Source of the DNA: Candidatus Thiodiazotropha sp. LNASS1 | GTDB taxonomy: Bacteria; Pseudomonadota; Gammaproteobacteria; Chromatiales; Chromatiaceae | Reading direction: 5' to 3' | NCBI RefSeq assembly: GCF_964212655.1 | Contig: NZ_OZ156465.1 | Span: 1,488,001-1,552,000 of the forward strand | DNA length: 64,000 bases | Shown here: in pieces, positions 19,079 to 36,027 of the stretch | Position numbering within the stretch: the stretch's first letter is position 1 | How the letters are laid out: each line of letters begins with the position of its first letter | Translations under genes and position numbers: made by a program | Notes under the pieces: model-generated | The model's input: the letters and a program-made list of their open reading frames with translations, nothing else | Told to the model about the DNA's origin: nothing | Database searches by the model: none

Positions 19079-19101
19079 GGATTAGTGTTAACAGGCCCTA
19101 A
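19079..19101. repeat. Solo terminal repeat of the MITE family
   Basis: 23 bases here match, in the same orientation, the right terminal repeat of the MITE at 32834-33098 (GGATTAGTGTTAACAGGCCC followed by TAA). No left end is found within several hundred bases. It is probably a relic of a deleted copy and lies directly in front of tpm. Confidence 0.75.
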
Positions 19102-29808: not shown

Positions 29809-30003
29809 ATGTTCACCCCGAAGAATGTTGCAGTTGTTTTAATCCTCGTTTTCATCGTCAGCCTGGCATCCTGGTCAAAACTGCGTTTCGTTGACGAGAG
29901 TGATCATGAAGAACAGCGCTGGCGTATCGAGGATTATCCCGGATTCACGGAAAAGAAGTCTCCCACAACAGGCTATAAGGACATTAAACACCCCAGTCAA
30001 TAG
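29809..30003 (+). CDS. Small membrane protein of unknown function
   Basis: 64 residues with one transmembrane helix (VAVVLILVFIVSLASW) and a charged C-terminus (DESDHEEQRWRIEDYPGF). The ATG has GGAG nine bases upstream, which favours it over the in-frame TTG at 29794. No family recognised. Confidence 0.6.
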   Translation: MFTPKNVAVVLILVFIVSLASWSKLRFVDESDHEEQRWRIEDYPGFTEKKSPTTGYKDIKHPSQ

Positions 30004-30263
30004 ACTTTGTTAAATCCTGAGAGCCTATCTAGTTGAATTATCTACTCTTGATTTGTTTTGTCACTCCCTCTTCCTACCCAGTAAAGCCTAATTAATTTTC
30101 TTTTAATTCATATAATTACATGGCTTTCTATAGCTTTATTCGGATCCCCCTAAGAAATCAAATTATCCTTATATATTATAATATGCTAATTTAACGTTTC
30201 TTAAGGATTCTTGTTCGTATTGGACCATTGCGCGACCTGCGCAGAGAAAAAGGGGTAATTTTC

Positions 30264-31805
30264 ATGGCCAAAAGATCTCAAGCAACCAAACAATCCGTCA
30301 CCACCGACAAAGCTAAAGATACCGAACAGAAAGAGAACCTGATTGATTTAGAGGATAGAGCTCCCACTGCAGCATTACCGAATGAGCTCAACAACAAGAT
30401 TGGTAAAATCGACTCTGACCTGGATGACCTCAGAAGTCAATTGAGCAAGACCAATCGCAGTGTAAAGACCAGCCTCTCACACCTGAGCGACAAGGGTAGC
30501 GATTTGACGACCAAGGTCTCCGAGACCTACCAGCAACTTGGTTCACTCGACGATGCCTACAAATCCCTGTCTGAGAAGTCCGCCACCATCAGCAAGGATA
30601 TCAAGACCGTCTCAAAGCAGATCAATCAGGTCAGTGAAAAGTCGGACAGCGATATTGGATTGCTAAGCGATGGCTACCAGTCCCTGCTGGCCCGTACCGA
30701 TGAGCTGGCGAAAAAATCGAAGCAGACCACTCAGACGCTGAATAAGAGCATCAAAGACAACGCCAAAATGCTGCAAGAGCTCGAAAGTGCACTGGTGGCT
30801 GAAATTGACAGCCTGGCCAAGCACAGCAAAGAGCGGGATCAAGACCTGGCTGACAAGAGTGATGAAATCAGCAATGACCTGACTAAGGCGCAGGATGAAA
30901 TCAAATCCAACCAGGCCCGCCTGCTGAAATTGCAGGCAGTGGATCAGGCATTAGAGAAACGAGTGACCGAGGTAGAGGGTACAGCAGGGGATCTGACCAA
31001 GAAGAGCAGAGAGCTCTCGAGATCAACAACTATATTGAATAAACGCAGCTCTGAGCTTTCTGATGCGATAGATGATCTTCGGGCCCGTACGGAAGAGCAT
31101 AGTGAGCAAATCACCGATCTTCAGGAGCGTGTTGAAAAAGGCGCCAGGGCATTGGTATCCCTGATAATGTTGGAAAAGCGCCATTTCCGCATCCTGGGGG
31201 GGATGATTGTACTGCTCGTTCTCGGCCTGCTCGTCTTCATGGGCACTGAATATGCCAACTGGCACTCTGAGGCACAAACCAACACAGCACTGCAATCGGA
31301 TATTGTCGCGACCAATACCCATCTTGCCGCGACCGATTCTCAGCTGAGCCATCTCAGTACTCAGACAGCCGAAACGGATAGCGCCATACAGAGTGAAATA
31401 TCCGATATTAACGACCGACTGATTACAATTGGCGATCAGGTGGACACCCTAGATGGGCGTGTCACCAATATGCGCCCGCATCAGACATTCGGTAGTGACA
31501 ACACCATTCACGGTTTCGCATGGATCGCCAAGCAGCCAGGCACTAACCATACTATTCATATTGCCACACTGAGTGACAAGCAAGAGATCTACAAACTGGC
31601 GGAGCGTTATCACAGTCACCTGAAAAAAGACCTTGCGTACTTGCCTGTGAAGAGCAATAACAGACAACAATATGCGATGATTTACGGTAACTTTTCCACT
31701 GCTGCCGATGCCGAGTCAGCGCTGAACAGACTGCCAAGGATGATTCAAAGGCATCGTCCTTCAGTCCATTCGATGGGTCAGGTCCAGTCATTCATAGCGG
31801 AATAA
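30264..31805 (+). CDS. Long coiled-coil membrane protein with DamX/SPOR-like C-terminus
   Basis: 513 residues. Residues about 20-300 are polar and heptad-rich (repeated KSxELxxxL patterns), a long cytoplasmic coiled coil. One transmembrane helix follows (MIVLLVLGLLVFMGTEY, about 308-330), then a short periplasmic coil and, from about 415, a SPOR-like domain (HTIHIATLSDKQEIYKLAERY, YAMIYGNFSTAADAESALNRLP, VHSMGQVQ) resembling the DamX C-terminus. SPOR domains bind denuded peptidoglycan at the division septum, so this may link cytoplasmic structures to cell division. The large N-terminal coil is unusual. ATG with AAAAAGGGG upstream; a terminator follows. Confidence 0.8.
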   Translation: MAKRSQATKQSVTTDKAKDTEQKENLIDLEDRAPTAALPNELNNKIGKIDSDLDDLRSQLSKTNRSVKTSLSHLSDKGSDLTTKVSETYQQLGSLDDAYKSLSEKSATISKDIKTVSKQINQVSEKSDSDIGLLSDGYQSLLARTDELAKKSKQTTQTLNKSIKDNAKMLQELESALVAEIDSLAKHSKERDQDLADKSDEISNDLTKAQDEIKSNQARLLKLQAVDQALEKRVTEVEGTAGDLTKKSRELSRSTTILNKRSSELSDAIDDLRARTEEHSEQITDLQERVEKGARALVSLIMLEKRHFRILGGMIVLLVLGLLVFMGTEYANWHSEAQTNTALQSDIVATNTHLAATDSQLSHLSTQTAETDSAIQSEISDINDRLITIGDQVDTLDGRVTNMRPHQTFGSDNTIHGFAWIAKQPGTNHTIHIATLSDKQEIYKLAERYHSHLKKDLAYLPVKSNNRQQYAMIYGNFSTAADAESALNRLPRMIQRHRPSVHSMGQVQSFIAE

Positions 31806-31820
31806 ACGGCTCAAGAACCT

Positions 31821-31864
31821 GGGGTGAGGCGGGTTCAAATCGGACCCCCTCACCCATCTTTTTA
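31821..31864 (+). terminator. Rho-independent terminator after the SPOR-like gene
   Basis: GGGTGAGG (31822-31829) pairs with CCTCACCC (31848-31855), followed by ATCTTTTTAA. The loop is long (18 bases). Confidence 0.75.
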
Positions 31865-32023
31865 ATACCTGAGTTCTACTATCACGCCGCTCAGTACCAG
31901 CGGTATCATTGATTATCAATCTGTCGCCTTAGTAGAAATCTATAACAATATCCGTCTACTGAGGATTGTCATTGCACCCTTGTAAACCCTGCCTGTACCC
32001 TCATGCCGATTTGAGGACCTGCA

Positions 32024-32446
32024 ATGAGTTTGGATCGTGGCACAAAAATCTACGCAGCCGTTCTCGCCAGCATATGCTTCGGTATACTACTGGCGTGGCT
32101 GCTGACACTGGACTTTCGCCTAGGTGAGATCGATGACATGTTGCAACGGGACCCCCTGATATCGTCCTACCCCTACCCCTTCAGGGCGATGCAGATCAGG
32201 GGCACGACTGCAATTATCTCCTCCCCCAGGTCGAGCGCTATGCCTGCTGTAAAGTTTATCGGCCTCATAAAGCCGAGCCTGAAAAACCTGAGCGATCAAG
32301 ATCCCAAGCTTATCGCGGCACAGAAGGAGCTTGCGGCAGTCCAGTCCAAAGTGCGCAAACTTGTAGTTGACCGGGAAGATATCGATAGGGTCGAATGGCG
32401 CATTGACAAGGAGTGGTTTGCAGAGAAGGGAATCTGGTTGGATTAA
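32024..32446 (+). CDS. Hypothetical single-pass membrane protein
   Basis: 140 residues. One N-terminal transmembrane helix (IYAAVLASICFGILLAWLL) is followed by a positively charged, partly helical domain (LIAAQKELAAVQSKVRKLV). No family recognised. GAGG precedes the ATG by 8 bases. Confidence 0.6.
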   Translation: MSLDRGTKIYAAVLASICFGILLAWLLTLDFRLGEIDDMLQRDPLISSYPYPFRAMQIRGTTAIISSPRSSAMPAVKFIGLIKPSLKNLSDQDPKLIAAQKELAAVQSKVRKLVVDREDIDRVEWRIDKEWFAEKGIWLD

Positions 32447-32529
32447 GCTTTAGGATGCGTGTGTAAGACGATTTATTAATATCTATGTTATACCTGACTT
32501 CAACAGCTTGCTTTTGAGCGCTCGTCTTG

Positions 32530-33234
32530 TCACTGGGTCTTGCCGGAAGAGATAATCCTGAAGGGCGTATCCCGCACCTCTTCATCCCGGTTACGCATGA
32601 AATCAGCCGTTCTGAAGAATGCCTGGTTGAGCTCTTCCTGCAGCTTTGCATCCAGATCCATCGCCGACAGCGCCTCACGCATACAATAAATCCACTGATC
32701 TCGTTCCTCGATACCGATACTGAAAGGAAGATGCCTGGCACGCAGCCTGGGATGACCATACTTCTCTACATAGAGATCGGGGCCACCCAACCAGCCGGAT
32801 AGAAAGAGGAACAGCTTTTCACGTGATATATTAGGGCCTGTTAACACTAATCCAATTGGCCCTGTTGCGCCTGAAAAAGCGCCACTCAAGGCGTGAGGAG
32901 AGAGGTTTGGTGATTCCAAATGAACGACGAGCAACGCCGAGTGGCGCTTTTTCAGGCGCAACCCGAAGGGCTGGGGCTATTTTTCCGCCCAGCGGCGTTA
33001 TCACTCGCTCATGTAGCATAACTACACCTCGCTCATTCTGCCTTGCTGGACAAAAAAATAGTCCCAGCAGGGCTGATTGGATTAGTGTTAACAGGCCCTA
33101 AGGCTCTTGGCATGCAGATCACGTATCTTTTTTGCCTCCTGTTGCCGGTCCATCAGATTATAAAACCTATCCACCAGTTCCCTGACTGCCGCTTCGCCGC
33201 CGATTCTCTCATAGGGCGTTTGATCTTGACTCAT
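32530..33234 (-). pseudogene. Group II truncated haemoglobin, interrupted by a MITE
   Basis: The N-terminal part (33234-33101: MSQDQTPYERIGGEAAV, LVDRFYNLM) and the C-terminal part (32831-32530: SREKLFLFLSGWLGGP, LYVEKYGHPRLRARHLPF) are both trHbII. The TrpG8, proximal His (EKYGHPRLRARH) and SGWLGGP motifs are intact. A 265-bp MITE with a TA duplication sits between them; in the gene's reading frame a TAA stop appears four codons into the insertion. Removing the element plus one TA restores one open frame (SLNISREK) of about 145 residues. A downstream ATG inside the MITE could still express the C-terminal half, but without the N-terminal helices it would not be a normal globin. Confidence 0.92.
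32834..33098. mobile_element. 265-bp MITE with nested inverted repeats
   Basis: Outer terminal inverted repeats are perfect (GGGCCTGTTAACAC... at 32834-32856 and 33076-33098), flanked by TA on both sides (32832-32833 and 33099-33100). Inside are two further inverted pairs: a perfect 24-bp pair at 32864-32887 with 32939-32962 and an imperfect one at 32970-32993 with 33045-33068, so the element can fold into two large hairpins in a closed outer stem. It has no transposase. TA target duplication suggests mobilisation by an IS630/Tc1-mariner-type transposase encoded elsewhere. Solo or degenerate ends occur at 19079 and 26858. Confidence 0.92.
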
Positions 33235-33446
33235 CGACTCTAACCTTAAAAAAACTGCATTTATTAGTGGTGTATCCAATAAAAAGATAGGATATAAATA
33301 GAGTCTACCCGGGCACGCTGAGAGAATTCAAGAATCTCCACGGACAATAGCTACGCGACAGTTGAACAGAGCAGACTGGAAAACGCCACTCGATAGCCTG
33401 TCTTGATGCCAATCATGCGGATTAAAGCCAGAGAACAACACCTGAA

Positions 33447-34415
33447 ATGAGCGAAACCAGCCTGTATGCAGAGCGGCCAGCAATCGGTGTCAGCGCCTGC
33501 CTGCTTGGGCACAATGTTCGCTATGATGGAGGGCATAAGCGGGATAGATACATCGTCGAAAAACTGGGAAAACATATGGAGTTTCTACCCATCTGCCCGG
33601 AAGCCGCAATCGGGCTCGGCGTCCCTCGTCCCACCATACATCTGGTCGGTGATATTCAGCACCCTCGCCTTGTCGGAGTCTCCGATCCCAACCGGGATGT
33701 CACTGACAAGATGAAACAATTTGCCCTCAAACAGGCTCAAGAACTGAACCACATCAGTGGTTATATATTGAAAAAGAACTCTCCCAGCTGTGGTATGGAG
33801 AGGGTGAAGGTGTACACTGATACCGGACAGCAATGCATAAGGAAAGGTACTGGTGTTTTTGCCGGAGTACTGATGCAACAACATCCTCTGCTTCCGATTG
33901 AGGAGGAGGGCCGTCTCAACGACAGCGTACTGAAAGAAAATTTCGTCAATCGTGTCTACGTCTATCACCGCTGGAGAAAGCTACTGTCTACACAGTTGAC
34001 GCCCGCAAGCCTGATCACTTTCCACACTGAGCATAAATATCTGGTTATGGCTCACTCTCAGGCAGCCTATCAACGTCTTGGCAAACTCGTTGCCAATCTG
34101 CCTGAAAAGAGATTCGCTACGATTACCGATGATTATATTCAAGAGTTGATGAATACGCTGAAGCGTCGTGTCACCAGAAAAAGACACGTCAATGTACTGC
34201 AACATATCATGGGCTATCTGAAAGAGTGTATCAGTCGCGATGACAAAGCTGAATTATCGGCCAGCATCGAGTCCTACCGACGGGGCGAAACACCTCTCAT
34301 CGTACCGATCACCTTGCTCAGGCACTACTTCAGGCTCCATCCTGACAGTTACATGTCAAAACAGGTCTATCTTCAGCCACACCCGGATTCCTTGGGACTC
34401 AGAAATAGCATTTGA
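33447..34415 (+). CDS. DUF523/DUF1722 (YbgA) protein, TudS-like
   Basis: 322 residues. N-terminal DUF523 has three conserved cysteines, C18 (SACLLG), C50 (ICPEAAIGLG) and C115 (NSPSCG), matching the [4Fe-4S] ligands of thiouracil desulfidase TudS. The C-terminal DUF1722 (about 190-300, LITFHTEHKYLVMAHS) is the E. coli YbgA domain. A desulfurisation role on thiolated nucleobases is inferred from TudS; the fused form is not characterised to my knowledge. Confidence 0.88.
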   Translation: MSETSLYAERPAIGVSACLLGHNVRYDGGHKRDRYIVEKLGKHMEFLPICPEAAIGLGVPRPTIHLVGDIQHPRLVGVSDPNRDVTDKMKQFALKQAQELNHISGYILKKNSPSCGMERVKVYTDTGQQCIRKGTGVFAGVLMQQHPLLPIEEEGRLNDSVLKENFVNRVYVYHRWRKLLSTQLTPASLITFHTEHKYLVMAHSQAAYQRLGKLVANLPEKRFATITDDYIQELMNTLKRRVTRKRHVNVLQHIMGYLKECISRDDKAELSASIESYRRGETPLIVPITLLRHYFRLHPDSYMSKQVYLQPHPDSLGLRNSI

Positions 34416-34560
34416 AACAACCCGGAGTATCTGAATGTAATCATGATGGTCCGATGCATTCCCAGAATATGTTCCCGGCACATTTCCCATTAAACGGACT
34501 GAATTTCAATGAGAGTTCTTTTACAGGACTTCTCCGGATCCTGGAATGACCGATGCCATT

Positions 34561-35031
34561 TCAGGTTAGTTCACCAGACTCGACCTCTTGCACAAACAGC
34601 CTTGAATCCGCCTCTCTCAGACGTCTGCATACTTCGCGGCCCAGGTTCATATAGATCAATGTATACTGATCTGAATCCGTATTATAAAGTTCTGCCAATT
34701 GTGCTGCCGTCACCTGTATCGCGCTGCTGTCCACCAGCGCCACAACCTCTGCACTGCGTGGCTTGCAATCCATCAGCGCCATTTCGCCGAAGCAGTCCCC
34801 CTCACGCAGTTCTCTCAGTTTGTAGCAGTTTCCATTCCAGTAACGATAGACTGCCACCTCTCCCTGTTCGATGATATATATGGAATTATCCAGATCACCT
34901 TCACGGAAAAAATAACCACCTTTAATCACCTCAACACTCTTAGCCTTGTCGAGTATCGAATTGAGTGTTGCTTCACTTACACCACCAAATATCGGCATCT
35001 CCTGCAGGATTCGCAATTTATCAGGCAACAT
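34561..35031 (-). CDS. Cyclic nucleotide-binding domain protein
   Basis: 156 residues, a single cNMP-binding fold with the phosphate-binding cassette GDCFGEMALMDCKPRSAEVV (glutamate and arginine both present) and short flanking helices. No DNA-binding domain, so it is a stand-alone sensor or regulatory subunit. SD GGAGGG precedes the ATG. Confidence 0.88.
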   Translation of the reverse strand: MLPDKLRILQEMPIFGGVSEATLNSILDKAKSVEVIKGGYFFREGDLDNSIYIIEQGEVAVYRYWNGNCYKLRELREGDCFGEMALMDCKPRSAEVVALVDSSAIQVTAAQLAELYNTDSDQYTLIYMNLGREVCRRLREADSRLFVQEVESGELT

Positions 35032-35298
35032 TCTTTACCCTCCCGCATCCGTTGTCATGTCCTCGTAAGAAAGGATTAGCACACAATAGCCAACTGATCT
35101 ACGTAATCTGAACATCGTTAGTATGATGATAAAGAGTAGTCGATATAGTGGGTGTCGGTTCAAAACAGCGACTAATAAACTAAAATCAATAAAAAAATGC
35201 GCTGTAACCACCGGTTATTGATTGATGCTTCTTGACTCGGTCCACTGCTTTTGCAATTTAGTATTCAGCCAGACAGCCTCCAGGTAGGGAACGACACC

Positions 35299-36027
35299 AT
35301 GAATGACACATTTGGTCTTGTTATTATCGGAGATGAAATACTTATTGGTAGTAGAGAGGACAGTCATCTCGCTCATTTCAAGCAACTGCTAGAGCATAAA
35401 GGTCTGCGCTTAAGCCGATGCTGGTTGCTGCCGGATGAGGAAACCAGCCTGATCGATCATTTGAGTTTTTCCATGGCCCAGGCTGATCCTGTATTCGTCT
35501 GTGGTGGTATCGGTGCCACGCCGGATGATCTGACCCGGGCCTGTGCCGCCGCAGCTGCCGATGTCCCACTGGCACTTCACCCTGAGGCAGTCGCGTTGAT
35601 TGAGGAGCGCTATGGAATGGAAGCCCGTCCAAACCGCATACAGATGGCGAATCTACCGCACGGTGCAAAGCTCATCCCCAATCCCTACAACCAGATCCCG
35701 GGCTTTTCTCTCAATCAGCACTATTTTTTACCTGGGTTTCCGCAGATGGCCTGGCCAATGGCCGAGTGGATATTGGATGAATACTATCCCGCAACAAATC
35801 TCACACTGAATGAACGCTCACTGCAAGTCCTCGACACACCTGAGAGTGCGCTTGTTGACATTATGAAGTGTTTCAACGAGCGTTTTCCCGGAATCAAACT
35901 CTTCAGCCTTCCAGTACTCGGTGAAAATGGATACGTTGAACTCGGTATTCGCGGCAGGGGCGATTTAGGGCAGGCTTTTACGGGCCTGCAAGAGAGCTTG
36001 CGGGCCAAGCAGATCCCTTTTCGCTGA
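35299..36027 (+). CDS. CinA N-terminal/MoCF-like molybdopterin-binding domain protein
   Basis: 242 residues. VIIGDEILIGSREDSHLAHFKQLL and VFVCGGIGATPDDLTRACAAAA are the MoCF_biosynth signature, and PGFPQMAWPMAEWIL the CinA-N end. The deamidase domain of CinA is absent. These proteins are usually annotated as molybdopterin-binding or competence/damage-inducible; function in this form is unclear. I start at the ATG at 35299 with AGGTAGGGA upstream. Confidence 0.88.
   Translation: MNDTFGLVIIGDEILIGSREDSHLAHFKQLLEHKGLRLSRCWLLPDEETSLIDHLSFSMAQADPVFVCGGIGATPDDLTRACAAAAADVPLALHPEAVALIEERYGMEARPNRIQMANLPHGAKLIPNPYNQIPGFSLNQHYFLPGFPQMAWPMAEWILDEYYPATNLTLNERSLQVLDTPESALVDIMKCFNERFPGIKLFSLPVLGENGYVELGIRGRGDLGQAFTGLQESLRAKQIPFR

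Follow-up and report, generated by a model that had tools for sequence, protein, structure and literature searches.

A truncated haemoglobin gene in Candidatus Thiodiazotropha sp. LNASS1 appears to have been broken by the insertion of a 265-bp MITE. The window that we analysed, a stretch of 64,000 nucleotides, lies within the single-contig genome (4.75 Mb) of this sulfur-oxidising symbiont of lucinid clams, and the closest relatives of the locus were found in Candidatus Thiodiazotropha endolucinida and in gill symbionts of the clam Ctena orbiculata. In the explanation that we favor, a MITE of an IS5/IS427-type family would have inserted at TTAA (Y-TA-R) in codons 45-46 of the globin gene after the split from Ca. 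T. endolucinida, duplicating TA and breaking the gene. We assign this explanation as a whole a probability of about 0.86. The insertion would have taken place before the two sampled strains separated or, alternatively, would have been spread between them by recombination. A MITE insertion that breaks a gene is an ordinary type of event, and the present case is a new instance of it and not a new mechanism. Neither the insertion nor a truncated haemoglobin of the symbiont was mentioned in the published papers that we searched. The features of the locus are listed in Table 1.

Table 1. Features of the interrupted globin locus, in window coordinates.
Feature	Position	Strand	Basis
MITE, 265 bp, ends resembling the IS5/IS427 type, no transposase	32834..33098		20 further class copies; absent at endolucinida syntenic locus
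TA target duplication, left copy	32832..32833		sequence; Y-TA / TA-R pattern of family copies
TA target duplication, right copy	33099..33100		sequence; Y-TA / TA-R pattern of family copies
Left terminal inverted repeat, 23 bp perfect	32834..32856	+	sequence
Right terminal inverted repeat, 23 bp perfect	33076..33098	-	sequence
Internal hairpin 1, 24-nt perfect arms (32864-32887 / 32939-32962)	32864..32962		folding
Internal hairpin 2, 15-nt arms (approximately 32970-32984 / 33054-33068)	32970..33068		folding
Truncated haemoglobin gene, 5' half, codons 1-45 in part, helices A-C	33101..33234	-	Pfam Bac_globin 31 bits, translation
Truncated haemoglobin gene, 3' half, codons 45/46-145 and stop, helices E-H	32530..32833	-	Pfam Bac_globin 83 bits
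Open frame of 143 aa, an in-frame fusion of element sequence with the 3' globin half; putative coding use	32530..32961	-	TTG start, no ATG

The original prediction described two halves of a globin gene on either side of a 265-bp element with terminal repeats and TA, and the coordinates and Bac_globin matches confirm this arrangement. While the separate halves matched Pfam Bac_globin at 31 and 83 bits, the joined halves matched at 124 bits. Excision in silico of the 265 bp and one TA gave the single frame that had been predicted, open for 145 codons. The joined 145-aa protein was nearest to the truncated haemoglobin structures 4uur, the best PDB match, and 2xyk, and its alignment to 4uur extended over nearly the whole length (E 2.7e-34). 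As judged by its Bac_globin domain and these nearest group II structures, the gene is of the group II truncated haemoglobin type. The joined protein can be aligned nearly end to end with group II truncated haemoglobins (4uur, 2xyk and HbO, 1ngk), from which the present gene differs in being split after residue 45.

The point of insertion lies four residues past the CD1 position (H41) and ahead of helix E. On the basis of the alignment and of what is generally known about the family, we take B10 Tyr25 and CD1 His41 to be located on one half, with the proximal F8 His79 and G8 Trp92 presumably on the other, and the insertion would divide the heme pocket between helices A-C and E-H. The total insert of 267 nt keeps the frame, but six in-frame stops separate the halves and leave no continuous reading frame for the whole globin fold; plain read-through of the insert was rejected because of these stops. 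Translation from the native start would end after 48 codons, at a stop within the element (frame 33088-33234, 48 aa). An open frame of 148 codons, which opens within the element and has only TTG or GTG as possible starts, contains the 3' half, and a search for an ATG start or a clear ribosome-binding site ahead of this frame found none. Two further intact Bac_globin genes are present in the genome (G000:C1:1662992-1663330 and 114031-114378), the former having a further copy of the MITE (1664338) approximately 1 kb away. The interrupted gene is thus most probably a null allele. Of the three Bac_globin genes in the genome, this one would be inactivated and its loss buffered by the other two.

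The element has the features of a MITE, being short and non-coding, with terminal inverted repeats and a TA target duplication, and belonging to a dispersed multicopy family. Its terminal repeats are perfect over the outer 23 bp only. The 265-bp class is represented by 21 copies in the genome (the window copy and 20 of 264-266 bp), nearly all of which occupy Y-TA-R targets. The same ends are found in related classes, which are approximately 227, 292 and 319 bp long. TA was present on both sides of 30 of the 35 paired-end family copies in the window's genome, and in these 30 copies C or T always preceded the left TA and G or A always followed the right TA (Y-TA...TA-R). The family was found in all 21 of the genus genomes searched. 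The prediction that a MITE had entered a truncated haemoglobin gene, duplicating TA, is supported by the other copies of the family, by the sites that they occupy and by the empty site at a syntenic locus (see below). Bacterial MITEs in general, including intragenic ERIC and Rickettsia palindromic elements, are likewise short and non-coding with inverted repeats, and they share with this element a large number of copies, strong hairpins and, sometimes, a location within genes (PMC10969869). In contrast to the in-frame Rickettsia elements (PMC10969869), the inserted frame here contains stops that break the gene.

Folded as a single strand, the element formed a terminal stem and two long hairpins, a structure far better than those of shuffled sequences (z = -14). 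Together with the TA borders of the family copies, this folding places the arrangement beyond chance. Among 17 distinct copies, a standard pair was kept in 98.5% of cells, and both partners had changed in 14 pairs. Pairing was not conserved to this degree in any of 500 shuffles, a count that does not translate into a probability because the copies are related. Selection for the folded structure might explain the paired changes in the stems, and so might hairpin-templated repair. No known RNA families were found in window positions 30000-36000.

Solo copies of the element end (TAGGGCCTGTTAACACTAATCCAAT, often followed by CGGCCCTA) were also numerous. They had no detectable partner end and often adjoined gene ends, as at window position 19081 (the end of a minus-strand copy) and at G000:C1 812796, 1119753, 1925743 and 2654268, among others. 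One 48-bp copy consisted merely of two element ends back to back. The solo and 48-bp copies could have derived from this MITE family as very short forms. At G000:C1:3383207-3383529, a 319-bp family copy apparently interrupts a porin-like gene, with a signal-peptide-like start before it and an OprD match after it. When eight joined-flank frames were tested for other copies that break genes, a Pfam domain extended across the junction in none.

With respect to the source of the transposase, an IS in the genome of another species of the genus (G006) was present in two copies of ~840 bp, 99.8% identical over 843 bp, with the ends TAGGGCCTGTTAACAATAAAG and TAGGGGGCGTTAACAATCAAAG. Its transposase is encoded in two overlapping frames, each of which scored above the NCBIfam cut-off for IS5 family transposase. 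Elements of the IS427 group tabulated for Paracoccus have a similar length and two-frame layout, and most of them generate 2-bp duplications (PMC3281130). The G006 IS agrees with this table in all three respects, and the TA duplication of the MITE family is likewise 2 bp. The MITE resembles the G006 IS and IS427-group elements such as IS1248 and ISPaes2 from Paracoccus (PMC3281130) in its outer bases, GGGCCTGTTAACA.., and, like them, has TA borders and a 2-bp duplication. However, it differs from them in having no transposase, an interior that is unrelated beyond the ends, and longer repeats (23 bp perfect). Compared with the ends of the G006 IS, those of the MITE had 3 mismatches in 22 positions at one end and 8 in 22 at the other, and it is by the ends alone that the two are linked.

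In the window's own genome, models for DUF4096, DDE_Tnp_1_2 and DDE_3 gave no match. An IS427 partner there was rejected as a candidate, since DUF4096 and DDE_Tnp_1_2 returned nothing and the single DDE_Tnp_1 gene had no matching ends nearby. An IS630/Tc1-mariner origin, prompted by the TA target, was likewise discarded: DDE_3 was absent from this genome, and the four such genes in the genus were without paired matching ends. Plasmid matches to the interior of the element, followed as a route to an autonomous partner, revealed none. We infer that an IS427-type transposase once mobilised the MITE in trans; in the window's genome this transposase is now either missing or undetected.

The empty site that had been expected in a sister genome was present in Ca. 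T. endolucinida, where the syntenic locus contains an intact globin gene with the same neighbours on both sides, a single TTAA and no element. The endolucinida sequence, CCTTAAAATATCACG, is one base apart from the predicted join, CCTTAATATATCACG, and encodes K46 instead of N46. This mismatch does not refute the insertion, because the background divergence of the locus is about 6%. The original prediction would have failed had all relatives carried the same element, and this was not the case: all 12 homologues in our between-species set, which came from other species of the genus, were unsplit. These homologues all have K at position 46, where the present gene has N, and the join 'SLNISREK' is not the conserved family junction that it had been thought to be. 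Among the lineages read, the TTAA target was found only in those of the window and endolucinida, and the other species had no TA at this point. A detectable homologue was missing from 8 of the 22 genus genomes surveyed, so that the globin gene can be dispensed with in the longer term. Between the window and endolucinida, the joined gene had a dN/dS of 0.14, and its neighbours ranged from 0.10 to 0.26. The halves had been described as showing no further decay. This held for stops and frameshifts, which neither half contains, but not for replacements, three of which (Q30R, K46N and Q132R) occur at positions that were constant in five other species compared. All three map to the branch from which both strains with the insertion descend.

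For comparison between strains, we used the two genomes of the species, the window genome and G056, a MAG of a Ctena orbiculata symbiont (QBVD01). The MAG contains the identical two junctions, on two contigs that each end inside the element. Synonymous divergence of the flanking genes between the two strains was 0-8%, and the nearest relative of the window's element in its own genome differed at 17 of 265 positions (6.4%); two other MITE subfamilies contain identical copies. By these comparisons, as far as sampled, the insertion is common to the species and is not part of the latest burst, and the earlier view of it as recent is not supported. It had also been proposed to vary among strains, but no empty site was seen within the species and the variation was only between species.

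The two strains differed at 2 of 261 sites in the element, 5 of 438 in the globin halves and 61 of 2222 in regional noncoding DNA. They were nearly identical across window positions 33400-35400, beside stretches of 2-6% divergence, and this unevenness along the locus suggests homologous recombination between the strains. All five changes in the halves were synonymous, with no replacements. The neutral chance of this outcome is 0.0005-0.002, depending on transition bias, for a pattern of five changes that was noticed post hoc. It is unexpected for a dead gene, and we retain it as unexplained, while noting that the changes are few and that the uneven divergence suggests recombination.

One way to account for this pattern is that the split gene has retained a useful product, either a chimeric 3' half that starts within the element at TTG or GTG, perhaps together with the 48-aa peptide, or a gene restored by excision in part of the population. 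Such a product would fit the open frame that crosses from the end of the element into the 3' half, and the two halves free of stops and frameshifts. However, the 3' frame has neither an ATG nor a clear ribosome-binding site and lacks the N-terminal helices with the B10 and CD1 residues, excision would have to occur in a genome where no IS427-type transposase was detected, and the three replacements fall at otherwise constant positions. We regard a residual product as quite unlikely. That the interrupted globin is under purifying selection through a chimeric or two-piece globin or partial excision seems to us a shade less probable still; if true, continued selection would account for the excess of synonymous differences.

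The age of the insertion can also be read differently. A young insertion could have spread through the species by homologous recombination, in which case most of the differences in the halves would predate it, empty strains may exist, and the insertion could look older than it is. The element copies do differ less than the regional noncoding DNA, and divergence falls close to zero nearby. However, differences were found inside the element and within 15 bp of it, which would limit any shared tract to a very short length; moreover, neither of the two genomes compared has an empty site. We consider this reading unlikely, though marginally less so than a residual product. This reading modifies the main explanation only as to the age of the event and leaves its nature unchanged. 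An artefact of assembly, or collapse of repeated sequence, might be suspected from an element that is repeated in the genome and within which both MAG contigs end. However, the single-contig genome and the separately sequenced MAG agree on both junctions, and two strain-specific differences lie inside the element. The second genome led us to reject an artefact, the chance of which we regard as negligible.

The favored explanation, the insertion of a MITE that broke the gene, would document the loss of one globin by insertion in a symbiont of clams that express haemoglobins themselves (PMC6712303). In addition, the putative IS427-type MITE family, present in every Thiodiazotropha genome searched, could serve as a marker for the history of strains and insertions.
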